This document shows, in pieces, positions 1,673 through 18,482 of a stretch of 20,621 nt of DNA. How positions within the stretch are numbered: the first letter of the stretch is position 1; each line of letters begins with the position of its first letter. This DNA comes from a virus: positions 1 through 20,621 of the IMG/VR virus record IMGVR_UViG_3300050132_000501; one strand, 5' to 3'. The notes under the pieces are model-generated. The model was not told the DNA's origin. It did not search any database and was given only the letters and a program-made list of their open reading frames with translations. The position numbers and the translations under genes were made by a program.

Positions 1673-2927
1673 GGTGTTCCAGCCTCTGCTGGCGCCGGCG
1701 CGTTACAAGGGCGCCTGGGGCGGCCGGGGATCGGGCAAGAGCCACTTTTTCGCGGAGATGCTGATCGAGGACAGTCTGGCCCAGCCGGGCCTGCTGTCGG
1801 TCTGCATCCGCGAGGTCCAGAAATCGCTAGCCGACTCCGCTAAACGATTGATTGAACGTAAACTTTCTGGCCTTGGCCTGGGTGAGGCGGCGGGGTTCAA
1901 GGTCTATCGCGAGCTGATCCGCACGCCTGGCGACGGGGTGATCACCTTCCAGGGCATGGCCGACCATACGGCGGACAGCATCAAGTCTCTGGAGGGGGTT
2001 CAGCGGGCGTGGGTGGAGGAGGCGCAGTCGCTGACCACCCGGTCGATGACGCTGCTGCGGCCCACGATCCGTGAGCCGGGATCGCAGCTGTGGTTCAGCT
2101 GGAACCCGCGTCGCCGCACCGATGCGGTCGATGTCATGCTGCGCGGCAATCCGCCGACCGGGGCGGTGGTGGTGCGGGCCGACTGGTCGGACAATCCGTG
2201 GTTCCCGGCTGAGCTGGAACAGGAACGCCACGACTGTCTGCGCGACGACGCCGACCAGTACGGGCACATCTGGGAAGGGGACTATGTGACCGCGACGACC
2301 GGCGCCTATTTCGCGAAGCAACTAGCGGTGCTGCGAGCCGAAAGGCGCCTCTGTGTGGTGGCCGCCGATCCCTTGCTGCGGATCCGCTGCTTCTGGGATC
2401 TGGGCGTAAGCGACTCCATGGCCATCTGGGTGGCGCAGTTCGTCGGGCGCGAGATCCGGGTGCTGGACTATATCGAGGGGGCCGGCCAACCGCTGAGCTA
2501 CTATGCCGACGCCCTCCGCTCGCGCGGCCATGGCGCGGCCCTGTGCGTGCTGCCCCATGACGGAGCGGAGCGCGACAGCGTGCGTGCGGTGAAGTTCGAG
2601 GACCACCTGCGCGATGCGGGGTTCGAGGTCCAGACGGTCAAGAACCAGGGCAAGGGCGCCGCCATGCTGCGCATCGAGGCGGCGCGGCGGCTGCTCCCGC
2701 AGATTTGGATCAATGCGGCGACCACGGTCGGCGGCGTCGAGGCGCTGGGCGCCTATCACGAACGCAAGGACGACGGGCGCGGCGTGGGCTTGGGTCCCGA
2801 ACACGATTGGTCGAGCCATGCCGCCGACGCCTTTGGGCTGATGTGCGTGGCCTATGAAGAGCCCCAGGCGGCGGTGCGCGAGCGACGAGCGTCCCACCAT
2901 GTCGGACACGGAGGATGGATGCGATGA
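1644..2927 (+). CDS. terL: phage terminase large subunit (PBSX-type ATPase/nuclease)
   Basis: This is the motor protein that translocates DNA into the prohead and cuts the concatemer. The N-terminal ATPase has Walker A GGRGSGKS at residues 26-33, Walker B AWVEE at 122-126 and a coupling motif FSWNP at 151-155. The C-terminal RNase H-like nuclease shows its metal-binding acids in FWDLG (D252), LPHDG (D306) and HAADAF (D395). At 427 residues it has the normal length for the Terminase_3/PBSX family. The chosen start is a TTG inside the previous gene, because the stretch ARVFQPLLAPARYKGA before Walker A is normal for the family. A GTG at 1674 would remove only ten residues. The stop TGA overlaps the portal ATG (ATGA at 2924-2927), so the two are translationally coupled. 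Confidence 0.95.
   Translation: MTALAIQTARVFQPLLAPARYKGAWGGRGSGKSHFFAEMLIEDSLAQPGLLSVCIREVQKSLADSAKRLIERKLSGLGLGEAAGFKVYRELIRTPGDGVITFQGMADHTADSIKSLEGVQRAWVEEAQSLTTRSMTLLRPTIREPGSQLWFSWNPRRRTDAVDVMLRGNPPTGAVVVRADWSDNPWFPAELEQERHDCLRDDADQYGHIWEGDYVTATTGAYFAKQLAVLRAERRLCVVAADPLLRIRCFWDLGVSDSMAIWVAQFVGREIRVLDYIEGAGQPLSYYADALRSRGHGAALCVLPHDGAERDSVRAVKFEDHLRDAGFEVQTVKNQGKGAAMLRIEAARRLLPQIWINAATTVGGVEALGAYHERKDDGRGVGLGPEHDWSSHAADAFGLMCVAYEEPQAAVRERRASHHVGHGGWMR
2910..2914 (+). promoter_or_regulatory. Shine-Dalgarno that decides the portal start
   Basis: GGAGG lies 9 bases before the ATG at 2924 and directly abuts the ATG at 2915, which would leave no spacing. It therefore favours 2924 as the translation start. 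Confidence 0.6.
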
Positions 2928-4843
2928 AAAATGCTGCGGGTCATGCTGCGCACAAAACAACGCCGGACGACGATGTTCGCGAGGCGTTGGACGCCTTTGC
3001 GGAGTGCGAGGAACGCGACCGCGACAACTTCAGCGCCGGCCAGGATGACATCCGTTTCGCCCGGCTGGAGGAGCAGTGGCCGGAGGGCGTCCGGGTCCAG
3101 CGGATGCGCGAAGGCCGGCCATGCCTGACCATCAACAAGCTGCCAGCCTTTATCCGCCAGGTGGTCAATGACGCGCGCCAGAACAAGCCTGCCATCAAGG
3201 TCCAGCCCCAGGACAGCGGGGCTGATCCGCAGACGGCGGATTTGATCAGCGGCCTGATCCGCAACATCGAGACCACCTCGGATGCCGACGTCGCCTACGA
3301 CACCGCCGTGGAGTGCGCGACGACCAACGGCTTCGGCTATTTCCGGGTCAATCTGCGCTACGCCAACGACGACAGTTGGGAACAGGATATCGTCATCGAA
3401 AGAGTGGCGGACCCGTTCAGCATCCACGGCGATCCATACTCAACAGGCGCTGACAGCGCCGACTGGAACATCGCCTTCGCCACCGAGATGATGCCGAAGC
3501 GGGCCTTTGAGGCGCACTTCCCGGGTGCTGCCCCCATCGATTGGGCCGGCCGTGACGACAGCCCGACCGGCTGGCGCGAAGGCCACACCGTGCGGGTTGC
3601 GGAATACTGGACGCGGGAAGCGGTCAAGCGGCAGATCGTGCTGTTGTCCAACGGCGAAGTGGTCGACCTGAAGGACTTCGAGCGTGACCGGGGGATGTAC
3701 GCCCAGGCCGGCGTGGCGGTGATCGGCCAGCCACGTGACGTCGCGTCCCACCGGGTGACGCAGAAGTTGATGACCGCCAAGGAGGTGTTGTCTGTCACGC
3801 CCTGGGCCGGCCGCTACATCCCGATCATTCCGGTCTATGGCGACGAGGTGAACCTGGGTGGCAAGCGGCATTTCCGCTCGCTGATCCGCTCGGCCAAGGA
3901 CAGCCAGATGAACTTCAACTTCTGGCGCACCGTGGGAGCCGAACTGGTGGCCCTGGCCCCGAAAGCCCCGTTCATCGGGCGCAAAGGCGCTTTCGAGACC
4001 GACCGTGACAAGTGGGAGACGATCAACGGCGAAAGCCATGCCTATGTGGAATTCGATGGCCCGGAGGCCCCGATGCGCCAGCCGTTCGCAGGCGTACCGG
4101 CTGGGGCGTTGCAAGAGGCGCTGAACGCCAGCGACGACATCAAGTCGATCATTGGGGTCTATGACGCCGGCCTGGGCGCCCGATCCAACGAGACCAGCGG
4201 CGTGGCGATCGACTCCCGCAAGCTGGAGGGCGATGTTTCGACCTTCCATTTTATCGACAACCTGTCGCGCGGCATCCGCCATGGCGGTCGGGTGATCATC
4301 GACCTGATCCCCCACGTCTATACGCCGGGACGGGTGGTGCGAGTGCTGGGCCTGGATGGTGTTGCGACCACGGCAAGGCTGGGGACGGCGGGCCAGGCGG
4401 CGACCCCGGTCAGCGGCCAGGTTGACCGGATCTACGACCTGACCGCCGGCAAGTACGACCTGACAGTCTCGGCGGGACCTAGCTACACCACCCGCCGCGA
4501 AGAAGCCGCCGAGCAGATGACCGAGCTGATCCGCGCCTATCCGCCCGCCGCTCCGATCCTCGGCGACCTGCTGGCCAAGAATCTCGACTGGCCAGGCGCC
4601 GACGAGATCGCCACGCGGCTGCAGGCCTTGCTGCCGCCGGCCCTGCGAGGAGGTGGCGCGGGAGGAAATGCTGCGGTCACAGATCTGCAGCAACAAGTGG
4701 CCTCGCTGACGGCGCAGCTAACGGCGCTGGCGCGGGACAAGTCGGCGGAGCAGCAGAAGCTGGCGATCGATCAGTACCGGGCGGAAACGGAACGAATGCA
4801 GGTGGCGTCGGGGGCGGAGACGTCGGCAGCCGCTATGGCATGA
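2924..4843 (+). CDS. P22-type portal protein
   Basis: This is the dodecameric ring at one capsid vertex through which DNA enters and leaves; it docks the terminase and later the adaptors. The protein of about 639 residues has the layout of the P22-like portal family. It has an N-terminal acidic helix, then LTINKLPAFIRQVVNDARQN around residues 65-84, which is a typical portal wing/stem entry, then a DVAYDTAVECATTNGFGYFR segment. A long helical C-terminal region follows, ending in a Gln/Ala-rich coiled coil (DLQQQVASLTAQLTALAR). I use the ATG at 2924 rather than 2915 because of the ribosome-binding site spacing and the ATGA overlap with the terminase. The stop overlaps an ATG at 4840 that begins a 46-residue ORF. 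Identification as a portal is confident from both sequence and order. Confidence 0.92.
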   Translation: MKNAAGHAAHKTTPDDDVREALDAFAECEERDRDNFSAGQDDIRFARLEEQWPEGVRVQRMREGRPCLTINKLPAFIRQVVNDARQNKPAIKVQPQDSGADPQTADLISGLIRNIETTSDADVAYDTAVECATTNGFGYFRVNLRYANDDSWEQDIVIERVADPFSIHGDPYSTGADSADWNIAFATEMMPKRAFEAHFPGAAPIDWAGRDDSPTGWREGHTVRVAEYWTREAVKRQIVLLSNGEVVDLKDFERDRGMYAQAGVAVIGQPRDVASHRVTQKLMTAKEVLSVTPWAGRYIPIIPVYGDEVNLGGKRHFRSLIRSAKDSQMNFNFWRTVGAELVALAPKAPFIGRKGAFETDRDKWETINGESHAYVEFDGPEAPMRQPFAGVPAGALQEALNASDDIKSIIGVYDAGLGARSNETSGVAIDSRKLEGDVSTFHFIDNLSRGIRHGGRVIIDLIPHVYTPGRVVRVLGLDGVATTARLGTAGQAATPVSGQVDRIYDLTAGKYDLTVSAGPSYTTRREEAAEQMTELIRAYPPAAPILGDLLAKNLDWPGADEIATRLQALLPPALRGGGAGGNAAVTDLQQQVASLTAQLTALARDKSAEQQKLAIDQYRAETERMQVASGAETSAAAMA

Positions 4844-6654: not shown

Positions 6655-7560
6655 CTAAGCCCCTTCGCCCGTCGCCAGCCAGCGCGCGCAGTCCGGCCCC
6701 AGCTTCTCCACCGCCATCTTCTCGTAGGCCGCAATGTCGGCCGGCGGCAGGACGTCGCGCCAGCGGCCGTTCGTGCCCTTGTTGATGAAGGTGTCTGCAC
6801 CGCCTTCCCAAACGAAACCGCCCAACGGCGCGCATTGCTCGGCGTTGGTCTTCATATAGGCGAAGGTGCAGTGGTCGATGACGTCCGGCCACTTGTCTTC
6901 TGGCACGTCGACATCAAGGAAATCCGCGATGGCGCGCATCTCGCCGGGCAGGTCGGCCTTCAGCTGGTTAAAGTGGATCAGCTTGACGTTCGGCTGATGG
7001 CGCAGCGCCCACCAGGTGGAGATGTTCTCCCAAAGAGACCAGAAGGGATAGCCGTCCCGGGCGAGCCAGGTGTTGAAATACTGGACGATGTCGGGGTCGG
7101 CGCGGGGCAAGGGATCGCCCACCAGGCCGGGTGTCAGGTTGAACATCTCGTAGGCGACGTCTTTGAAATTGGCGTGGTGATTGTAGAGGCTCCAGACCAC
7201 GTCGCGGCCGTCGCGGGCGATGTAGATGTATTTGGCCTTGGGCGACATGACCAAGGCGTCCGCCGGCAGGTGGGTCTTGACGACACGGCGGTGGGTCTGA
7301 GCGGCGAAGGCCTGGCGAGCTTCGGGAGGAATGATGCGCATGTCCCACCACGGCGACAGGTCATGAATGTTGACCGCTGGGTCCCCTTGGTGAAGCAACT
7401 GGCCAACGATCTGCTGGGTCCAGGTGGTGCCTGACTTGGCGTAGGTGGCGACCACCACGTCGTCACCGCGGAAGTCGAAATTGTCCCACAGGGTCGAGTC
7501 CATGTGGTGATTGTGGATGTCGCGCGTCTTGCGCGGCGTGGCCATTTCAGTCTGCGTCAT
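6655..7560 (-). CDS. PAPS-dependent sulfotransferase
   Basis: This cytosolic enzyme transfers sulfate from 3'-phosphoadenosine-5'-phosphosulfate to a hydroxyl or amine acceptor. The 301-residue product shows the full Sulfotransferase_1 signature. The 5'-phosphosulfate loop is YAKSGTTWTQ at 40-49. The catalytic histidine H97 lies in KTHLP. The 3'-phosphate segment is RDGRDVVWSL at 116-125. The C-terminal INKGTNGRWRD corresponds to the RKGxxGDW motif. All key residues are present, so it should be active. The start is ATG at 7560, with GGAGGG 7 bases upstream; an in-frame TTG at 7575 overlaps that ribosome-binding site and is unlikely. It lies on the opposite strand to the phage genes and downstream of the PEP-CTERM gene, probably in one transcript. 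The acceptor is unknown. A surface glycan is likely by context, but small lipids are possible. Confidence 0.92.
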   Translation of the reverse strand: MTQTEMATPRKTRDIHNHHMDSTLWDNFDFRGDDVVVATYAKSGTTWTQQIVGQLLHQGDPAVNIHDLSPWWDMRIIPPEARQAFAAQTHRRVVKTHLPADALVMSPKAKYIYIARDGRDVVWSLYNHHANFKDVAYEMFNLTPGLVGDPLPRADPDIVQYFNTWLARDGYPFWSLWENISTWWALRHQPNVKLIHFNQLKADLPGEMRAIADFLDVDVPEDKWPDVIDHCTFAYMKTNAEQCAPLGGFVWEGGADTFINKGTNGRWRDVLPPADIAAYEKMAVEKLGPDCARWLATGEGA

Positions 7561-7567
7561 TAGCCAG

Positions 7568-7573
7568 CCCTCC
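7568..7573 (-). promoter_or_regulatory. Shine-Dalgarno of the sulfotransferase gene
   Basis: GGAGGG read on the minus strand lies 7 bases before the ATG at 7560. It rules out the in-frame TTG at 7575, which would place the start codon upstream of this site. Confidence 0.7.
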
Positions 7574-7653
7574 AAGCTCCGACGGCCGCCGGCGAGTTCG
7601 CCATTGAAGCCTTCGGATAGAGGTAATATCTGAACAGATCGGGTGGCTGGAGT

Positions 7654-8307
7654 CTAGAGAATGGCGGCAAGCGGGCGATACCCGCGCCGCCGCCGCAGCG
7701 CCGCTCCCAGGCCGCCGAGACCCGCCAGCAGCATGGCCCACTCCGCCGGTTCTGGTATGGCGGCAAGGGTTTCGGTGATGGTCAGATGCGAGGCGCCGAT
7801 CACGCCAAACGGGTCGGAATTGCCCCAGATATTGTACTGCGATGAACAAGGCGTGACGTCGGAAATCATTGCCGTGGCGCAGGTGTTGAACGCCAGGGGC
7901 GCCTGATAAAGGATCGAAGTCAGGCCTGGGGTCAGCGTTTCCTGGAACTCACTGAAGTTCCAGTTTCCGCCGAAGCTAGTCGTCAGACCAGTGTCGGTTT
8001 TGTAGGTGACATACTCATCGACTTCGTTCGGGATGGGCACAGTGAATAAGGCGTTGGGGTCGGCGCTGGTGTAGCTGAAATTCCACAGGTAGAGGCGTCC
8101 GTCGGTCGGCAGGGTATAGTCGAACCAGTAGGGGCCGAGGGCCGGGTCGATCACAAACGGCGTTCCAAAACTGCCCCTAGCCAGCCCCAGTGTTTTGCCT
8201 GGGGCCGCCGAGCCCATCAGGACCATCGCCATGGCCCAGACCGCCGCCGCCAAGGCGCGCCGTCCACCATACGAGGTCGAAAGCCGACAGATTGGTTTTG
8301 GCGTCAC
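7654..8307 (-). CDS. PEPxxWA-CTERM sorting-domain protein
   Basis: This is a secreted surface protein of 217 residues. An N-terminal signal peptide (hydrophobic ALAAAVWAMAMVLMG at 18-32, probable cleavage near AAPGKT) leads to a beta-rich, aromatic-rich mature domain with one possible disulfide (C143, C154). The C-terminus is a textbook sorting signal: PEPAEWA at 185-191, a transmembrane stretch to about 204, then RRRR at 205-208. In hosts with an exosortase this tail is recognised, cleaved and the protein is exported, usually alongside exopolysaccharide production. The start is GTG at 8307, preceded by AGGGGG. The sulfotransferase gene follows on the same strand about 90 bases later. It is a bacterial-type gene inside a phage head cluster, hence probable cargo. 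The mature domain is not recognised. Confidence 0.88.
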   Translation of the reverse strand: MTPKPICRLSTSYGGRRALAAAVWAMAMVLMGSAAPGKTLGLARGSFGTPFVIDPALGPYWFDYTLPTDGRLYLWNFSYTSADPNALFTVPIPNEVDEYVTYKTDTGLTTSFGGNWNFSEFQETLTPGLTSILYQAPLAFNTCATAMISDVTPCSSQYNIWGNSDPFGVIGASHLTITETLAAIPEPAEWAMLLAGLGGLGAALRRRRGYRPLAAIL

Positions 8308-9492: not shown

Positions 9493-10728
9493 ATGACCAC
9501 CAATGCTTTCCTGTCGCCCAAGGTCTTCGCCAATGCGGGCCTGAAGCTGTTGAAGAACAATCTCGTCATGGCCAAGCTGTGCGACAGCGAAGGGGTCGAC
9601 AAGGAGTTCCAGCCCGGCGTGGGTGGCACCGTCTATGTCAAGCGCCCGCCGGAATTCATCGTCCGCCGGGGCGCCACCGCCAGCCCTCAGAACGTGATCG
9701 AGGGGGAGATCGCGGTGAACGTCAACATTCAGTCGGGCGTCGATGTGCAGTTTACCTCGGTCGAGGAAACGCTGAATGTCGACAAGCTGTTGAGCTCCAA
9801 GGTGCTGGCCGCGTCCATGGCGACCATTGCGTCCGACGTCGACAACGAGTTGATGAAGCGCACGCTGGACTTCCCCAACTGGACCGGCACGCCGGGCACG
9901 GCGGTCAGTTCCACCGCGCCGCTCTTCGCCGCGGCCCAGCGACTGGATGAGAACGCCATTCCCGCCGATAGCCGCAACGGCGTCCTGAATCCCGCCGACA
10001 CCTATGGCGTGGCGTCAAGCCTTCTGGCCAACGCCGCCCAGCAGGGCGACACGGCGCGGAACGCCTTGGAGAAGGCCAAGATTCCGGTGATCGGCAATAT
10101 CGACTGGTATATGACCCAGACGGTGCCGACCTTGACCACTGGCAGCCGCGTTGTCGGCACGTTCCTGGTCAACGGAGCGAGCCAGAACGTCGCCTATACC
10201 GCCGTTAAATCGACCATGCAGCAAACCTTGATCTGCGACGGTCAAGTCTCCAAGACCGTGGCGGCCGGTGAAGTGTTCACGATCGCCGGCGTGAACGACA
10301 TCAATCCGCGCACCAAGGCCGACCTTGGCCGGGCTAAGCAGTTCACCGTGGTCAGCGCCGCCACCTCGGACGGTTCGGGCAATGTGACCCTGACCATCTT
10401 CCCGGCGATCATCAGCGACACCACGAGCCCCTATCAGAACGTCTCGGCCGCCCCGGCCGACAACGCCGCCCTGACCTTCAATGGCGCCCTGTCCACGGCG
10501 TTCCGATCGGGCGCGGCCTTCCACAAAACGGCCATCAAGCTGGTGAGCGCCAAGCTGGTCATGCCCTATTCCGGCGAGGCGGATTACGCCACCGATCCGG
10601 ACACTGGCCTGACCGTCCGCTACTGGCGCTACAGCGATGGCGCCAACGACCTGCACAATCACCGCTGGGACGTATTCTTCGGCACGGTGACCACCGATCC
10701 CCGGCTGGGGACGCGGTTGAACGGTTAG
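9493..10728 (+). CDS. major capsid protein, P22 coat (gp5)-like
   Basis: This is the shell subunit of the icosahedral head, with an HK97-like fold expected. The 411-residue product is close to P22 gp5 in length and has the family's features. The N-terminal arm is NAFLSPKVFANAGLKLLKNN. The early beta segment is GGTVYVKRPPEF. The QFTSVEETLNVDKLLSSKVLAASMATIASDV region forms the long spine helix. A large central beta-rich insertion (about 215-330) is consistent with the P22 insertion domain. The C-terminus is HNHRWDVFFGTVTTDPRLGTRL. The start ATG has AGAAGGA upstream. It follows the scaffold gene and is followed by a strong terminator. No decoration protein gene is adjacent. Confidence 0.9.
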   Translation: MTTNAFLSPKVFANAGLKLLKNNLVMAKLCDSEGVDKEFQPGVGGTVYVKRPPEFIVRRGATASPQNVIEGEIAVNVNIQSGVDVQFTSVEETLNVDKLLSSKVLAASMATIASDVDNELMKRTLDFPNWTGTPGTAVSSTAPLFAAAQRLDENAIPADSRNGVLNPADTYGVASSLLANAAQQGDTARNALEKAKIPVIGNIDWYMTQTVPTLTTGSRVVGTFLVNGASQNVAYTAVKSTMQQTLICDGQVSKTVAAGEVFTIAGVNDINPRTKADLGRAKQFTVVSAATSDGSGNVTLTIFPAIISDTTSPYQNVSAAPADNAALTFNGALSTAFRSGAAFHKTAIKLVSAKLVMPYSGEADYATDPDTGLTVRYWRYSDGANDLHNHRWDVFFGTVTTDPRLGTRLNG

Positions 10729-10828: not shown

Positions 10829-11467
10829 ATGGCCCTGACCACCTACGCCGATCTGAAACTGGCGGCCGCTGACTGGCTGAGCCGGGCAGACCTGGACCAG
10901 CAGATTCCGGACTTCATCAAGCTGGCTGAGGCCACGCTAAACAAGATCGTGCGGTCGACGCGGATGACCGCCAATGCCGACGTCACGGTCAATGCGGGCG
11001 CGCGTAAGGCGGCCCTGCCGAGCGACATGCTTGAGCCCATCTATGTGACACTGAAGACTGACGAGGACTTCCCGCTGGAGGCGGTGTCGCCGGAGCAGCT
11101 CGTGGCGCTTCGCCGTTCGCGGATGCGGGCCCAGGGAACGCCCCGGTTCTACGCCATCGTCGGGCGCAGCATTGAGGTGACGCCGACGCCGGCCAGCCAG
11201 ATCACCCTGGACGTGGCCTACTACCAGACCATCACATCCCTGGCGTCGGACAGCGACACCAACTGGGTGCTGCAGTTCGAGCCGGATCTCTACCTCTATA
11301 CGGCCCTGCTGCACGCCGCGCCCTTCCTTCAGGATCAGGCGCGCGCCGCCCTTTTCCAGAACCTGCTGACCCAGCAGGTCGCCGCGGCGGTCCAGGCCAA
11401 TCAGACCATCGGCCTTGATAACCGCGTGGCCGGCGCGTCGCTGAGCAGCCCGTCGGACGTCAAATGA
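10829..11467 (+). CDS. head-tail adaptor protein, SU10-adaptor-like, copy 1
   Basis: This 212-residue connector protein is expected to form a ring under the portal and extend the channel. Features typical of the podoviral adaptor family are visible: an N-terminal helical part (LKLAAADWLSRADL, IPDFIKLAEATLNKIVR), a beta segment with ALPSDMLEPIYVTL, GTPRFYAIVG, then NWVLQFEPDLYLYTALLHAAPFL. The start is ATG at 10829 with GAGG upstream, inside AGAGGCGAGCCCC; the frame is open a little further upstream, over the terminator tail. The stop overlaps the ATG of a paralogous gene (ATGA at 11464-11467). Its product and that of the next gene align over about 190 residues, so this is a tandem duplication. 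Confidence 0.8.
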   Translation: MALTTYADLKLAAADWLSRADLDQQIPDFIKLAEATLNKIVRSTRMTANADVTVNAGARKAALPSDMLEPIYVTLKTDEDFPLEAVSPEQLVALRRSRMRAQGTPRFYAIVGRSIEVTPTPASQITLDVAYYQTITSLASDSDTNWVLQFEPDLYLYTALLHAAPFLQDQARAALFQNLLTQQVAAAVQANQTIGLDNRVAGASLSSPSDVK

Positions 11468-12624
11468 TCTATTCCGACCTCGTCGCCGCGATCCTGGCCT
11501 GGGTGACCAGGCCCGAGATCGAGCAGTCCGTTCCGATCTTCATTGCTCTGGCCGAATCCCAGATCAACCGCGCCTTGGCCGTTGCTGGAATCACCGGGTC
11601 GGTGCAGCGGGCGACCATCACCATTGCCGGCGAATATGTCACGGCCCCGGTGGACCTAGCGCAGATTCAAAGCCTGACGCTATCGACCGGCGAGGGGGTG
11701 GAGAACGATACCGAGCTTGGCCTTGAGACGATCAAGCGGCTGTTCACCGCAGCCGGCAAGCCGCGCTATTTCACCCTCATCGGCCAACAGTTCGGCTTCG
11801 TTCCGGTCCCGGATGCCAGCTATTCTGCCGTCCTGGTCTATCAGGCGCTGCTGGCAGCCGTCTCCGACGCAAACCCGACCAATTGGCTTCTGGCCAACTA
11901 TCCCGACGCCTACCTCTATGGCGCCCTGGTCCAGTCCGCGCCGTTCCTTGGCGACGATCCGCGCCTGAACACCTGGACCAGCCTGTTTCAGACCGCGCTG
12001 GATGGAATCGTCACGGCTGAGCGGGCCAAGCGGGGTAGCCAGGTGACCCGAGCCTTCAGCCCCAACATGCCCAGCAGGGGCCCTTTCGGCTATCGGGATG
12101 GGAGCTTCGCGGGGTCGAGCACACCTGGCCCGACGCCAACGCCAACGCCAACGCCGACCCCAACCCCGGCCCCGACGCCAACACCTACGCCGCCAGGCCC
12201 AGTTCCAGTCAACGCAATTGCCCCGTCGATCAGCGGAACCACCACTATTGGGCACGTATTGACCGCCAATCCCGGTTCATGGAGCAACGCGCCCAGCAGC
12301 TTCGCTTACGTCTGGAAGCGGGATGGGGCGCAGATCAGCGGGGCAACCGCCAACACCTACCTGCTGGTCTCGGGCGACGCGACGCACGCCCTCACCGTGA
12401 CAGTCATCGCAACCAACACCAACGGACCATCCGCTCCGGTGACCAGCGCGCCGACCGCGACGATTTCGGCTGGGTCAGGTGGGACCATTGTGCCGTTTGT
12501 CGTGGATCTTCCGCAGACCGGCGACACGCTGTTGAGCCTGGACCTGTCCGATGTTCCGGTCGGCAATGGGGTGACGGTGATCAACACCGCCGCCTCTGTC
12601 GTTCTCGATTTTATCTATGAATAG
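11464..12624 (+). CDS. second adaptor paralogue fused to Pro-Thr linker and Ig-like domain
   Basis: This is a 386-residue three-part protein. Residues 1-205 repeat the adaptor fold of the gene before it (PIFIALAESQINRAL; GKPRYFTLIG; NWLLANYPDAYLYGALVQSAPFL). Residues 220-249 are a Pro-Thr linker built on a repeated ACGCCA hexamer. Residues 254-335 form an Ig-like domain of the kind found on bacterial and phage surfaces (GTTTIGHVLTANPGSW, FAYVWKRDGAQISGATANTY, HALTVTVIATN). A 43-residue tail, GDTLLSLDLSDVP to FIYE, ends the protein. The adaptor part would sit in the connector and the Ig-like part project outward, perhaps for weak binding to surface sugars. It is translationally coupled to copy 1. 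The domain calls are confident by pattern; the fused arrangement is unusual for a connector. Confidence 0.8.
   Translation: MIYSDLVAAILAWVTRPEIEQSVPIFIALAESQINRALAVAGITGSVQRATITIAGEYVTAPVDLAQIQSLTLSTGEGVENDTELGLETIKRLFTAAGKPRYFTLIGQQFGFVPVPDASYSAVLVYQALLAAVSDANPTNWLLANYPDAYLYGALVQSAPFLGDDPRLNTWTSLFQTALDGIVTAERAKRGSQVTRAFSPNMPSRGPFGYRDGSFAGSSTPGPTPTPTPTPTPTPAPTPTPTPPGPVPVNAIAPSISGTTTIGHVLTANPGSWSNAPSSFAYVWKRDGAQISGATANTYLLVSGDATHALTVTVIATNTNGPSAPVTSAPTATISAGSGGTIVPFVVDLPQTGDTLLSLDLSDVPVGNGVTVINTAASVVLDFIYE
12121..12210 (+). repeat. hexanucleotide-based Pro-Thr linker repeat
   Basis: Imperfect ACGCCA-type hexamers encode alternating Thr-Pro (residues 220-249 of the adaptor paralogue), including three exact copies in a row. 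Slippage by one unit would change linker length without shifting the frame. Confidence 0.7.
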
Positions 12625-12633
12625 GGGCCAGCC

Positions 12634-15633
12634 ATGACCACTTATAAGGGCATCGGGTTCGATGGCGGGGACTTCGATCCCACCCTCTATCCCTGGCTAA
12701 CCGGCTCGGTCACCGGCGCTTATGATCCTGCCGCCGGTCAAGGCCTTCTGTTCGGCGGCCATGATGTCTCGCATGGCAACGGAACCTTACCGGACTCGCG
12801 CCTATATGGCGCGGAGGGGTGGAGCACCCAGGTCTATCGCTATGACATCGACAACGGGACGTACACGTTCCGTTGCGCCGTGGGCAACGTTAACATTAGC
12901 GGTGCGGCCAGTCTGGTTATCGACAACGACGACGGGGCCGCCATCGTCTTGAACAGCGGCGCTTCTATCGACATTCATCAGGTGCTTGTCGCCGACAACA
13001 CCGTTATGTCAGACACCGACTGGATCGCCAGCAACGGTGGCTTGGGCGGCGGTCCCGGCGTCAGCGTCTCCGTCACCAAAGGCTACGTCCTTCTCTATGC
13101 GGACGAAGGCACCACCGGCAATCCCCGCATCGTCCAGTTCGAAAGCTCGGGCGTCACACTTGAGGACGCGACCCTAGCTACCGACCATACCAACTATACG
13201 GCCACAGCAACTGGCGGCGTGACGACCATCGGAAGTGCTGTCGTTACCGGCCTGTCCAGCACGTCGGGCATGAAGACTGGGATGCGGTTCGACGCCTCAA
13301 GTGTGCCCTATGGCAGGACGATCCTGAGCGTCGATAGCGGCAGTCAGGTCACCCTGAACGACGGAACGGGCGTTACCGCCGCGACCGGCTTAGCTGTACG
13401 AGTGGGCTATTCCGTGACGTTGTATGAGGCCTCGCCGGCTAATGCGGTCATTGCGCCGATCACCCTGGTTAACGGCCCCAGGGACGGCCTAATCGTCTAC
13501 GAAGCGGACGGAACGACAGTCAGTCCCTACATCAAGGCGGTTAAAGTGGGCTCGCAGCCCTGGCTCGGATACAGTACCACGCCCCTGCCCGGCGCGACGC
13601 CTCACGCCTTCAAAATCTATCAACCGAATGGCAGTGACACCCCGCATACCACGTCGATTTCCCTTCCCGTGATTGCGGCCCCGAACAAGCTGGCCGACGC
13701 CGCAGTGCGGCCGGTCCTGGCCAAGATGCTGACGCCGAACTACCTGCGGCGCAAGAACACCCTGGACACCATCGAGAGCGGCAAGTGGCACGGATACAAG
13801 GGACAGGCCTTCGAAGCCAGCGTGACGGTTTATTCGATCTCGCAACTTCTCGACCAGATGAACACCTTCCAGAGTTCCGCAGGTGTCAACAAATGGTTCC
13901 ACATCAGGCTGGGGACCGGCAGTGGGTCGGACGATTGGGCGTCGGACTCGTCGGGCTGGAACAGCACGGGCTTTGACTTTAAACCCGCCCTGGGTGGCGG
14001 CCTGTTGATTACCAACGCGCCGACCCAGCAACCCGCCATCACCGGGGGTATCTACACCGCTGAACCCTGCGGCTTGCAGTTCGGCCTGCTTGGGGCCTAC
14101 GCGGGCATCGCCAACTCGCCGATCCTGCTGGCTACCGATACCGGCGCTCCCTGCTGGCGTGGCGATGGCCACAATGTCGATGCTGCGACGACCATCATCT
14201 TCGAGAATGTCTGGTTCGGCAGCTTGGCAAATCCCGCCAACTCTGGCGACAGCATGAGCACGACGGCGGACAAGGCTGGCTGGGGCCTTGGCTTCAACTA
14301 TGTTGGCGAGCAACTTACTGTCCGAAACTGCCGGTTCCTCGGGACGGCGCTGGGGATCATCGCCATCGCCTGTCGGCGCGTCGAAATCCTCGACAATGAA
14401 TTCGCGGTGCTCAACGATGACTGCATCCGCATTGGCGCTCTTGTTCACCCCTATGGCCGCTGGGGGACGAGCGGGCTGCTGGACGGGACTGGCGGCGACG
14501 ACGTGTTCTACAATATCGCCCGCAACACTCAGCACCGCCAGATCGACATTGCCGACACGATCGGCTGGTCAGGCGTCAACTGGGGTGATCCCCACTGGGA
14601 TGTCATCCAAGTCCAGACCCAAACCTTCTTCTTCGACGCCACGGGCTGCACGACCACGGCCGGAAGTGCGGTTGTGCCTGGCATTCCCAGCACCACGGGC
14701 ATGCTCGCTGGCCAGGTCTTTGACTGCCCGACCGTGCCCTTGGGGCGCACCATCGCCAGCGTCGATAGTGGCACTCAGATCACCCTGGCGAGCGGGGCGG
14801 GCGTAACCGCAGGCTCTAGTCTTCCAGCTGCGGCCAGGACCTATACCGGCTGTATCCACATCGTGAATGAAGACTGGACGGTCGTTAACAAGGTCTCGAC
14901 CATCAGCGTTTGCCCGTCCGACTCTAGCCGGGTGGGCTTCCCGGTGCGGCAGTTCTTCGAGCCCAGCGATGTCTGCCCGATCTATGGGTCATTCAACAAC
15001 AACATGGCGGGAAATTCAGCCAAGGCCGGTCTCGATTTCGGCAATGGCATTGGCTTCGCGGAGTTCAACTCGTTTGGCGGCTCCGCGCAAATGCCGTCAT
15101 CAACCGTTGATGCGGTGGTTCAGTCCATCCAGGAGATTTTCAGCCGCAACGATGAGCTTAAGGGCGCGCCGAACTGCAACTATAGCCGCCTGAACATCGC
15201 CCACGCCGTTTCAAACAACCTTGGGATCAGCCTGTTCTCTGAAGGCGATGTGGTGGCTGACTTCGCTGACGACGGCACCACTGAGACACGGCCCGGCGCG
15301 GTCATGGCCGGAACCTTCACCCAGGACGGCGACCGCACCGGCCGTTGGGTCTATTCTATTGACGACACCCTGTCGGCCGATGACCTGCGCAAGGCGTTCT
15401 ACGACACCTTCAAGCCGAAAGCTGGCGTCCTAGCGGGTGTTTCTGAGCTTCATCTACGACTGAACCCCGGAGACATGGCGACCTTGTCCAACAGTCATGC
15501 CGGGAGCCTCAACGCCATCACGGATGGGGAGCCCATCGCTACGGGTGCTGAAGGCGCATCTGCGACCTGGCATCGCGGCGCCTCGGAAACCGGCCCGACG
15601 GACGGCATTGACCTTACCTACGGCGTGATCTGA
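12634..15633 (+). CDS. tailspike-like protein with beta-helix domain
   Basis: This 999-residue tail protein is probably the receptor-binding spike. Residues 1-170 look like an all-beta head domain ([20 protein letters not shown]). Residues 192-250 form a compact module, and a second copy occurs at 669-727 with 37 of 59 residues identical by eye. Between the two, about 500-610, are parallel beta-helix coils ([41 protein letters not shown], ending at residue 601). The NDDCIRIG turn recalls pectate-lyase-like polysaccharide enzymes. The C-terminal 270 residues are unassigned. The start ATG follows AGGGG, 9 bases after the previous stop. It could cleave or bind a host capsule or O-antigen; catalytic residues cannot be named. 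There is no match to the P22 gp9 head-binding domain that I can see. Confidence 0.7.
13207..13383 (+). repeat. tailspike internal module, copy 1
   Basis: Encodes residues 192-250, with GSAVV, STSGM and [18 protein letters not shown]. It pairs with the copy at 14638-14814. The DNA over the SVDSG part differs at only about three bases in 28. Confidence 0.75.
14638..14814 (+). repeat. tailspike internal module, copy 2
   Basis: Encodes residues 669-727, with GSAVV, STTGM and [18 protein letters not shown]. It is the same length as copy 1, with no gaps needed in the alignment, and sits just after the beta-helix region. Confidence 0.75.
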
Positions 15634-15643
15634 GGGGCGAGCC

Positions 15644-16609
15644 ATGGCTGACACCACCACCACCAATTACAGCTTCGTCAAACCCGAGGTCGGCGCATCC
15701 GCCGATACCTGGGGTGGGAAGCTGAATGGCGATTTGGATGCCATCGACACCGCGCTCGCCGCGCTTGATGGGGCGGCGCTGAAGAAGGCCAGCAACCTAT
15801 CCGACCTGGCCAGCGCCAGCACCGCGCGGACCAATCTGGGGCTGGGTGACGCTGCGGTAAAGAACACCGGCACGAGCAGCGGCACGCTGGCGGCCGGAGA
15901 CGATGGCCGGATCACAGGCGCGACGCAGAAGTCCGCCAACCTCTCCGACCTCGGTTCGGCGTCCACGGCGAGAGCCAACCTTGGCCTTGGCGGGGCTTCA
16001 GTCCTGAACGTCGGCTCCTCATCCAACACGGTGGCGGCGGGTGATGACGCCCGGTTCGGCGCCGCGGCGCTGAAAGCCTTGAACCTGTCTGACCTGGCTT
16101 CTCCCTCGACGGCGCGGGGAAACCTGGGCCTTGGCGGAGCATCTGTCTTGAATATCGGGACGGCCTCTGGAACGGTCGCGGCCGGTGACGACAGCCGGAT
16201 CACGGGCGCCGCTCAAAAGGCGTCGAACCTTTCCGACCTGGCCAATGCGGCGGCGGCGCGGTCCAACCTGGCTTTGGGCTCTCTGGCCACCTTGTCAGCC
16301 GTCAACAACGGCAATTGGTCGGGCGCGGTGCTGACCATCGCCAATGGGGGCACGGGCGCAGGCGATGCGGCGACGGCTCGGTCAAACCTGGGTGTAACGG
16401 CTGCGAATATTGGGTTGGGCTCGGTCGATAATAAGTCGTCGGCCACCATCCGTGGCGAGCTGACGGCTGCCAATGTGAACACCGCGTTGGGCAAGACGGC
16501 CGCGCGCATGAACGCGGGGACCGGCACGAACTCTGGCCTGATCTCTGTCGGCACGGCCGCCCCCAGCGGCACGCCTGACGACGGCCAAATCTATTTGCAG
16601 TACACCTGA
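15644..16609 (+). CDS. repeat-rich tail fibre protein
   Basis: This 321-residue fibre-type protein has an N-terminus ([22 protein letters not shown]) of the wording common at the start of phage tail-fibre or spike-associated proteins. Three 48-residue repeats follow at residues 48-95, 96-143 and 144-191, each reading NLSDL, STARxNLGLG, then AAGDDxR. A fourth is partial (from 192), and the last part diverges ([20 protein letters not shown], then [13 protein letters not shown]). Such STARxNLGL and NGGTG repeats typically form trimeric fibrous stalks. GAGGGG 6-11 bases upstream fixes the ATG. It lies 10 bases after the tailspike gene and its stop overlaps the next ATG as TGATG. No chaperone or receptor-tip domain is obvious. 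Confidence 0.8.
15785..16216 (+). repeat. three tandem 144-bp repeats in the fibre gene
   Basis: Units at 15785-15928, 15929-16072 and 16073-16216 encode equal 48-residue repeats without gaps. A partial, degenerating fourth unit begins at 16217. Copy number could change by recombination without frameshift. Confidence 0.85.
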
Positions 16610-17007
16610 TGAGCGGTCTCAATGTCGGCGTTGGCGGAGCGTGGAAGTCAGCCAAGCCTTTCGTGGGCGTCGGGGGGGTGTGGAAGGCCGTCCAGGCGGG
16701 GTTCGTCGGCGTCGGTGGCGTGTGGAAGCAGTTCTATACGGCCGTTCCCGCAATGTCGGTCACACCCGTCAATGGCTCCTGGTTTCCCGAATATGACAGC
16801 AGTAGCGGGGTTCCGGTCCTGGTCGACTATGTTGGTTCCTGTAGCGTCTCGGTATCCGGCGGCGTTGCGCCATATACCTATAGCTGGCCCGGGGGCACGG
16901 ACACCTACACCGAGCGAACGGCCAGCCCCTACAACCGAAGCATCGATTGCACCGTGACGGACTCGGTGGGGACATCCCAAACTGTCAACGCCCAGATCAA
17001 TCCATGA
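16609..17007 (+). CDS. small tail protein with VGVGGxWK repeats and Ig-like domain
   Basis: This is a 132-residue protein. The first 43 residues contain three copies of VGVGG[AV]WK (6-13, 19-26, 33-40), a pattern often found in small phage tail or fibre-tip proteins. From about residue 48 there is a beta-sandwich-like domain (VSGGVAPYTYSWPGG, then SIDCTVTDSVGTSQTVNAQI) resembling PKD or Ig-like folds, with a possible disulfide between C71 and C117. The ATG overlaps the fibre stop as TGATG, and its own stop overlaps the next ATG as ATGA, so it is translated in step with both. It probably decorates or tips the fibre. The repeat is a recognised pattern; its exact role is unknown. Confidence 0.7.
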   Translation: MSGLNVGVGGAWKSAKPFVGVGGVWKAVQAGFVGVGGVWKQFYTAVPAMSVTPVNGSWFPEYDSSSGVPVLVDYVGSCSVSVSGGVAPYTYSWPGGTDTYTERTASPYNRSIDCTVTDSVGTSQTVNAQINP

Positions 17008-18482
17008 CTCTTGTCCCTCTGACCCTGCCGCCCGGTGTCTATCGCAACGGCACGGAGGATCAGTCGAGCGGCCGCTACTATGACAGCAACTTGGTGCGCT
17101 GGACGGAAGGCACGCTTCGCCCCATGGGCGGCTGGACGACGCTTTCGCAATCTCCGGTCACCGGCAAGGGCCGCGCGATCCTGACTTGGCGCGACAACAG
17201 CGGCAACCGATGGGCGGCCATCGGCACCCATTCGAACCTCTACATCATGGACCGGCTGGGCCAGGTTTATGACATCACGCCCTCTGGCCTGACGGTCGGC
17301 GCTCCGGTTGCTCCCGTGGGCGGTGGCTACGGCGGCGGCGACTATGGGGCGGGAGACTACGGCGCTCCGGGCGACGATCCCGGCCTTATCGGCGACGCGA
17401 CCATTTGGTCACTCGATACTTTCGGCGAAAACCTGGTCGCCCTGAACAACGCCGATGGTCTGCTCTACCAGTGGCTCTTGGACACGGCCACAGCTGCCGT
17501 AGTCGTCTCAGCAGCCCCTGTGAACAGCCGGGCGCTGGTGGTGACCGAAGAACGCTTCCTGCTCCTCCTGGGCGCCGCTGGAAATCCGCGTCTAGTCCAA
17601 TGGGCAGATCAGGAGAGCCTGACCGCCTGGACGCCCGACCCGACCATCCAGGCCGGGAACTTCCCGTTGCAGTCTCGCGGCCGGCTGATGTGCGGGGCGC
17701 GCATCCGGGGCGGCACGTTGCTGTTCACCGACCAGGAAGCCTATCTGGCCACCTATGTCGGTGCGCCGCTGATCTACGGCTTCCAGCGGATCGGGGAGGG
17801 GTGCGGCATCATCAGCCAGGGCGCGGCCTGCGTCGGCGGTGACGCCGTGATCGCCTGGATGGGCGCCAAGGGCTTCTGGACCTTCGACGGCTATGCCGAG
17901 CCTTTGGCCTGCGATGTGTCGGACTATGTTTTCGGGGATCTGAACAGAAACCAAGTCTCGCTGATCACGGTGACCTATTCGCCCAGCTATGGCGAGATCA
18001 CCTGGTTCTATCCGTCGTCCATGTCGTCGGAAAACGACCGCTACGTTCGCTGGAATCACCGGGAAAATCATTGGGCCATCGGTCAGCTTTCGAGAACCGC
18101 GGGCATTGAGGAGGGCGTCTTTACCCAGCCCTTCATGGTCGGCCCGGACGGCGACGTCTTCGCCCACGAGACAGGTTGGAACTATGATGGCGCGGTCCCC
18201 TTTGCGGAGACCAGCCCGATCGCGATGGGGGCCGGCGACAATGTCTTCACCGCGCTGTCGCTGATCCCCGACGAGCTGACGGTAGGCGGGGTGCAGGCGA
18301 GTTTTATCACCAGAATGGAGCCAACGGGCGCGACCCGAACCTATGGCCCCTATAGCCCGACTATCAAAACCGACGTCCGGTTTACGGCGCGTCAGGCGCG
18401 GATGCGGCTGACCGCCACCGGCAACGGCGACTGGCGGGTCGGGACCTTCAAGATCGATGTGACGCGGGGAGGTTTGCGATGA
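17004..18482 (+). CDS. P22 gp10-like tail hub/DNA stabilisation protein
   Basis: This 492-residue protein is expected to close the head after packaging by attaching below the adaptors. The N-terminus LPPGVYRNGTEDQSSGRYYDSNLVRW is followed by GGWTTLSQSP, and beta-propeller-like stretches such as IWSDTFGENL-type blades recur (IWSLDTFGENLVALNNADG; NPRLVQWADQESLTAWTP; GFWTFDGYAEPL; YVRWNHRENHWAIGQL). These are typical of the gp10-like family of short-tailed phages. A Gly/Tyr/Asp loop (GGGYGGGDYGAGDYG near 111-125) is a family feature. I use the ATG at 17004, which overlaps the previous stop as ATGA; the frame extends upstream to 16947 inside the previous gene, without a better start. The 3' end overlaps the next gene, ATGA at 18479. 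Confidence 0.8.
   Translation: MTLVPLTLPPGVYRNGTEDQSSGRYYDSNLVRWTEGTLRPMGGWTTLSQSPVTGKGRAILTWRDNSGNRWAAIGTHSNLYIMDRLGQVYDITPSGLTVGAPVAPVGGGYGGGDYGAGDYGAPGDDPGLIGDATIWSLDTFGENLVALNNADGLLYQWLLDTATAAVVVSAAPVNSRALVVTEERFLLLLGAAGNPRLVQWADQESLTAWTPDPTIQAGNFPLQSRGRLMCGARIRGGTLLFTDQEAYLATYVGAPLIYGFQRIGEGCGIISQGAACVGGDAVIAWMGAKGFWTFDGYAEPLACDVSDYVFGDLNRNQVSLITVTYSPSYGEITWFYPSSMSSENDRYVRWNHRENHWAIGQLSRTAGIEEGVFTQPFMVGPDGDVFAHETGWNYDGAVPFAETSPIAMGAGDNVFTALSLIPDELTVGGVQASFITRMEPTGATRTYGPYSPTIKTDVRFTARQARMRLTATGNGDWRVGTFKIDVTRGGLR

Follow-up and report, generated by a model that had tools for sequence, protein, structure and literature searches.

Two paralogous adaptor genes, one carrying a C-terminal Ig-like domain, between the coat and nozzle genes of a P22/LUZ24-type podovirus

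The 20.6-kb virus contig analysed here (the whole of it is called the window) carries a P22-type head module of terminase, portal, scaffold and coat genes, and downstream of the coat gene lie two adjacent adaptor genes, referred to as copy 1 (C1) and copy 2 (C2). The order is coat, copy 1, copy 2, two putative fibre or spike genes, a gene for a 132-aa protein and the nozzle gene, so the pair sits between the major capsid protein gene and the nozzle gene, as expected of an SU10/LUZ24-type adaptor. The features are as follows.

2915-4843, + strand: portal protein, P22 type (PF16510, E 3.4e-176)
9493-10728, + strand: major capsid protein, P22 coat type (PF11651, E 8.8e-43)
10829-11467, + strand: copy 1, SU10/LUZ24-type adaptor of 212 aa with a C1-specific neutral C-tail (LDNRVAGASLSSPSD) (PF24175, E 9.6e-33; PHROG 2941, E 2.8e-51; C1 clade SH-aLRT 100)
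10883-10894, + strand: R-x-D-L motif (R19-L22) of copy 1 at the α1-α2 turn, as in single-copy adaptors
11464-12624, + strand: copy 2, adaptor with a C-terminal Ig-like domain, 386 aa (PF24175, E 2e-30; PHROG 2941, E 1.2e-38)
11464-12045, + strand: adaptor domain of copy 2, residues 1-194 (AlphaFold pLDDT exceeds 90 across most of residues 1-193; Foldseek ranks the Pa223 and SU10 adaptors first)
11509-11520, + strand: site at which copy 2 has lost R-x-D-L; the residues there are RPEI
12046-12123, + strand: basic C-terminal tail of copy 2; the relatives L052 and L084 terminate in this region
12124-12195, + strand: Thr-Pro linker, S221-P244, encoded by a 6-bp tandem repeat (12133-12191)
12205-12465, + strand: Ig-like domain, residues about 248-334 (Hoc-like PHROG, E 0.001; AlphaFold and Foldseek results below)
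12466-12621, + strand: C-terminal segment 3' of the Ig domain, 52 residues with a low-confidence fold; no relatives were found
12634-16609, + strand: two putative fibre/spike genes directly 3' of copy 2 (12634-15633, 999 aa; 15644-16609, 321 aa with tail-collar-fibre repeats)
17007-18482, + strand: nozzle (tail tube B) protein, 491 aa, kin of the nozzles in Pa223 and VP1 (phmmer E 5.2e-12 against 9nwi_Y and about 1e-6 against the VP1 nozzle chains; PHROG 3287, E 4e-75)

Are both products adaptors? A preliminary description of this DNA had placed two products within 10829-12624, which is what we find: copy 1 runs from ATG 10829 to 11467, and copy 2 runs from ATG 11464, its start codon overlapping the copy 1 stop (ATGA), to 12624. 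It had also described an adaptor layout common to both over about 190 residues; BLASTP aligns the two proteins across 187 residues at 32% identity (E 3e-25), and the motifs on which that description relied (FIxLAExxxN, GxPRxxxxxG and NWxLxxxPDxYLYxALxxxAPFL) are all three present, exactly, in both. The Pfam family SU10_adaptor, PF24175, has a cut-off of 27 bits and gives 114.7 bits for copy 1 and 107.2 bits for copy 2, and PHROG 2941 is matched by both copies. Judged by these matches, the two copies belong to a single adaptor family. The AlphaFold model of the copy 2 adaptor domain is a helix bundle with a small β domain (pLDDT above 90; copy 1 was assigned by sequence), and its best PDB matches in Foldseek are the adaptors of Pa223 (9nwi, E 2e-12), SU10 (E 1.5e-9), VP1 and GP4, followed by the ring proteins of crAss001.

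What sets copy 2 apart is its C-terminal part. The Thr-Pro linker and the Ig-like domain, both recognised in the preliminary description, occur in the window pair on copy 2 only. When AlphaFold was given an Ig alignment, the domain came out as a confident β-sandwich (pLDDT 96-98) for which Foldseek ranks Ig and FN3 domains highest; a fold of full-length copy 2 with adaptor rows only as input left the Ig part unresolved. Its sequence relatives are Hoc-like PHROGs and Ig-bearing phage proteins, including Stenotrophomonas phage proteins annotated as capsid decoration or whisker. We are thus looking at an Ig-like β-sandwich at the C-terminus of a protein that its family membership would place in the virion. 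The second copies of the nearest relatives (L052, 55% identity; L084, 46-47%) terminate normally, without an Ig domain, and for this reason the domain is best regarded as gained by copy 2, as had been proposed. How common is such a fusion? Among 426 adaptor ORFs and 108 Ig ORFs (all fetched loci, duplicates included), window copy 2 alone has adaptor and Ig in the same ORF. The preliminary description had suggested a search for further cases in other podoviruses; none came up in phage records or in scans of viral contigs with adaptor or Ig protein queries, nor among the adaptor loci of 299 genomes that belong to a single order, centred on G001. Two other viral contigs encode an Ig-like domain of this kind in genes adjoining the adaptor (L387:2387-3352 and L359:3237-5543). 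Seven single-copy adaptors (L021, L023, L026, L031, L032, L038 and L039) bear C-terminal extensions of 115-172 aa that are β-rich or fibre-like; they belong to other lineages, and their modules are different from, and independent of, the window Ig fusion. The adaptor C-terminus is therefore a repeated site of module gain, and the Ig fusion, in agreement with these seven relatives, shows that surface modules are tolerated there.

Where does the pair come from? IMG/VR was scanned with both copies and an adaptor HMM, which separated loci with the pair from single-copy ORFs. The pair was found in 87 non-duplicate contig loci, and 228 ORFs were single-copy; near-copies from related metagenomes are included among the contigs, so these locus counts are not independent. 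In 50,697 phage records (annotated phage isolates) no tandem pair was detected at E 1e-5. Every copy-1 sequence in the tree falls into a single clade (SH-aLRT 100), and copy-2 sequences are interleaved with single-copy adaptors at several positions; constraining copy 2 to one clade lowers lnL by 131 and is rejected (p-AU 0.0125), and a tree in which copy 1 is an old split from window-type copy 2 is compatible with the data (p-AU 0.54). Since copy 1 is one shared clade and copy 2 is scattered among single-copy adaptors, the pair did not arise by duplication within this genome. The preliminary description had spoken of a tandem adaptor duplication. The adjacent paralogues of one family are indeed there, but a recent local duplication is ruled out by the copy-1 clade common to the 87 contig loci, and the term should give way to 'acquired or long-diverged paralogue'. 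On these trees, copy 1 reads as a separately inherited second adaptor beside differing resident adaptors. One prophage in a Caulobacteraceae MAG (L239) has the pair and a third, divergent PF24175 gene; three adaptor-like PF24175 genes in a row, the first of them very divergent and without R-x-D-L, are seen at L239:7293-9217 and at L053:6946-8870. Of 116 single-copy loci, 90 have a small gene of about 105 aa 5' of the adaptor (for example L243:3687-4001, phiM5_15); the window lacks it. The idea that copy 1 is a substitute for this gene was discarded, as the gene persists in 36 of 79 two-copy loci.

Do the two copies do the same thing? Two things are typical of single-copy adaptors: the turn joining helices 1 and 2 bears an R-x-D-L motif, and the protein ends in a short basic tail. 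The motif is present in 87/87 copy-1 ORFs, in 0/87 copy-2 ORFs and in 187/228 single-copy ORFs; in the AlphaFold model of copy 2 its site is the turn that joins helix 3-14 to helix 17-40. The tail behaves in the opposite way. Scored as two basic residues close together within the last 12 positions and counted on unique tails, it is found in none of 23 copy-1 tails, in 26 of 27 copy-2 tails and in 56 of 79 single-copy tails. The tail of window copy 2 differs from the RxKIRSY typical of marine relatives. R-x-D-L is still present in the nearest single-copy sisters of copy 2 (L236 versus L109, L230 versus L060, an Octadecabacter virus versus L055). A tree built without the motif columns gives four well-supported independent contrasts, of which on average 3.7 run in the direction of loss (sign-test p 0.125); the contrast is phylogenetically clustered, and these independent comparisons are suggestive, not significant alone. 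In the T7 adaptor, the α1-α2 loop touches the nozzle and a C-terminal embracing helix touches the portal (PMC6702177). Given the reciprocal loss and these T7 contacts, the simplest reading is that copy 2 became the portal-side and copy 1 the nozzle-side protein. The portal-facing and nozzle-facing parts of an adaptor are hard to dissect because one protein normally does both, and two paralogues that each keep one half would allow both interfaces to be read out directly by genetics. This reciprocal loss is a more interesting result than the suggested collar.

How could two such proteins be arranged? We propose that this P22/LUZ24-type podovirus has a neck made of two paralogous adaptors instead of one, and that each copy most likely makes its own dodecameric ring, stacked in the order portal, copy 2, copy 1, nozzle. 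Copy 2 would have kept the basic C-tail, whose expected role in single-copy adaptors is to clasp the portal, and copy 1 the nozzle-facing R-x-D-L turn of helices 1 and 2; the loss of the opposite feature by each copy would amount to a division of labour between the duplicates. In this virus alone, the copy 2 C-tail appears to have been lengthened by a Thr-Pro stalk with an Ig-like domain at its end, which could place up to 12 flexible Ig arms around the neck near the capsid vertex, presumably exposed on the virion surface. With the copy 2 ring on the portal side, the arms would emerge near the capsid-neck junction. Since phage Douge has Ig-like domains that, in isolated form, attach to the host surface (PMC13033339), accessory adhesion is the most likely role of the Ig domain, and the arms would be weak, probably glycan-directed accessory adhesins. 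To the arrangement as a whole, with stacked dodecamers in this order and the Ig arms as neck accessory adhesins, we give about an even chance. The whisker-like collar for host contact suggested in the preliminary description is plausible and would be consistent with these rings. A wider evolutionary scenario is put forward more tentatively, as somewhat short of an even bet: a second, separately inherited adaptor (copy 1) would have joined differing residents in a mainly uncultured podovirus clade, the resident would then have lost its nozzle-facing motif to give a hetero-stacked two-ring connector, and one virus would have acquired twelve tethered Ig-like arms on the portal-side ring, the first Ig-decorated podovirus neck.

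Is the Ig domain an adhesin at all? It could be baggage, neutral or structural, or else a site at which fibres dock. Phage Ig-like modules are promiscuous (also Fraser 2006, cited in PMC13033339), fibre genes adjoin copy 2, and the fusion is seen in one contig only, so that selection on it is not demonstrated. Set against this are the frame, which is open through linker and domain with a composition like that of the rest of the genome, and the binding seen with Douge; we regard a non-adhesive role as unlikely, if with a real chance. Ig-like domains on multicopy virion or decoration proteins are familiar from Hoc, T5 pb10/pb6, Peru-2 P2_50 and the Douge MCP/TTP, for which weak glycan binding has been proposed. 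These known decorations sit on capsid, decoration, tail-tube or fibre proteins and, unlike the domain of window copy 2, none was found on a podoviral adaptor.

Might the two rings be stacked the other way round? In that case copy 1 would contact the portal, copy 2 would contact the nozzle, and the Ig arms would point toward the distal tail, among the fibres. Copy 1 does come first in the gene order, with the fibre genes directly 3' of copy 2, but the basic tail is on copy 2 and the α1-α2 motif on copy 1, and the T7 contacts argue for the opposite order; the reverse stack seems improbable to us.

A third possibility is a single ring in which copy 1 alternates with copy 2, six of each, leaving six Ig arms. 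A 6-fold nozzle and fibre set could use such a 6+6 ring, the adaptor subunits of SU10 alternate between two conformations (PMC9509320), and a one-ring option was named by Hardies and co-workers for the phiGT1 dual tubeA phages (PMC10386132). However, the reciprocal loss of motifs on opposite faces is predicted by a stack and not by a mixed ring, and stacked rings are found in crAss001 and, by chain counts, in Pa223, which makes the alternating ring a distinctly doubtful arrangement. The tail entry of Pa223 (9nwi) contains 24 chains of one adaptor and 6 nozzle chains; from these counts, the LUZ24-like tail of this phage apparently has two adaptor dodecamers made from one gene. GP4 is a further precedent: its entry 8jov combines two distinct sequences of adaptor fold, of which one is present as 12 chains. 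SU10 has a single adaptor dodecamer (PMC9509320), so the family is not always two-ringed.

Finally, that the fusion is a metagenomic assembly artefact made at the repetitive Thr-Pro linker is very improbable indeed. In favour of an artefact, the linker DNA is a 6-bp repeat, the remaining viral contigs lack the exact junction 29-mer, and an Ig domain is found on no further adaptor ORF. Against it, the ORF is single and continuous with the next gene 9 bp downstream, a typical sequencing read is longer than the 59-bp repeat, and the GC3 of the Ig part (0.75) is close to that of the neighbouring spike gene (0.757).

Returning to the proposed two-ring neck, how does it compare with known systems? 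According to the phiGT1 account (PMC10386132), Sulfitobacter phage phiGT1 and the Bcep22-like phages are, like the window, P22-like podoviruses with adjacent paralogous adaptor (tubeA) genes, and either two rings or one mixed (heteromeric) ring was proposed for the phiGT1-like and Bcep22-like pairs. The dual-adaptor kind, as described there, is therefore already known, and what is new is that both copies are LUZ24/SU10-like. The phiGT1 pair combines a LUZ24-like and an Mx8/Pr-like protein, extremely divergent from each other, the Pr copy being a long-branch outlier in our adaptor tree. The window does not have this combination: both of its copies match PF24175 and PHROG 2941 strongly, and they are of LUZ24/SU10 type, 32% identical and with reciprocal motif loss. 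The passages of that account consulted here do not mention an Ig domain, which window copy 2 has. Through a window-type pair, the question of one mixed ring or two rings in dual-tubeA phages becomes testable.

The best structural match of copy 2 is in Pseudomonas phage Pa223 (a LUZ24-like Bruynoghevirus), whose nozzle is homologous to that of the window; there both rings, going by chain numbers, come from one gene and there is no Ig domain, whereas the window has two adaptor genes with an Ig domain on copy 2. The SU10 (Kuravirus) adaptor gp11 has its Pfam family and fold in common with the window copies, but it is one gene forming one dodecamer, with a fibre-dock domain and no Ig (PMC9509320). 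In crAss001, five stacked rings made from four paralogues (R1-R4) lie between portal and muzzle (PMC10172136). Like the window, crAss001 has paralogous adaptor-fold proteins; there the dodecamers stack and fibre hubs form a collar on R1/R2. The crAss001 paralogues, three to four of them, are divergent, belong to a different phage order and have no Ig fusion, and the window does not carry the Crassvirales structural gene set, its portal and coat being P22-type (PF16510, PF11651), which leaves kinship at the level of the fold only.

Several other genes of the window deserve a mention. Directly upstream of the nozzle gene, the 132-aa protein (16609-17007, + strand) has GVGGxWK repeats and, at its C-terminus, a SprB/Hoc-like domain, which gives this virus a second surface module of Ig/PKD-like type. 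The 999-aa putative spike (12634-15633) contains a module of about 60 residues twice, around residues 197-258 and 674-735. Between the portal and scaffold genes, the structural module is interrupted on the opposite strand by host-type cargo (6655-8307, - strand), made up of a sulfotransferase (6655-7575, - strand; PF00685, E 2e-47) and a PEPxxWA-CTERM sorting-signal protein (7654-8307, - strand; Pfam E 4e-5, NCBIfam NF035944 E 5e-9).
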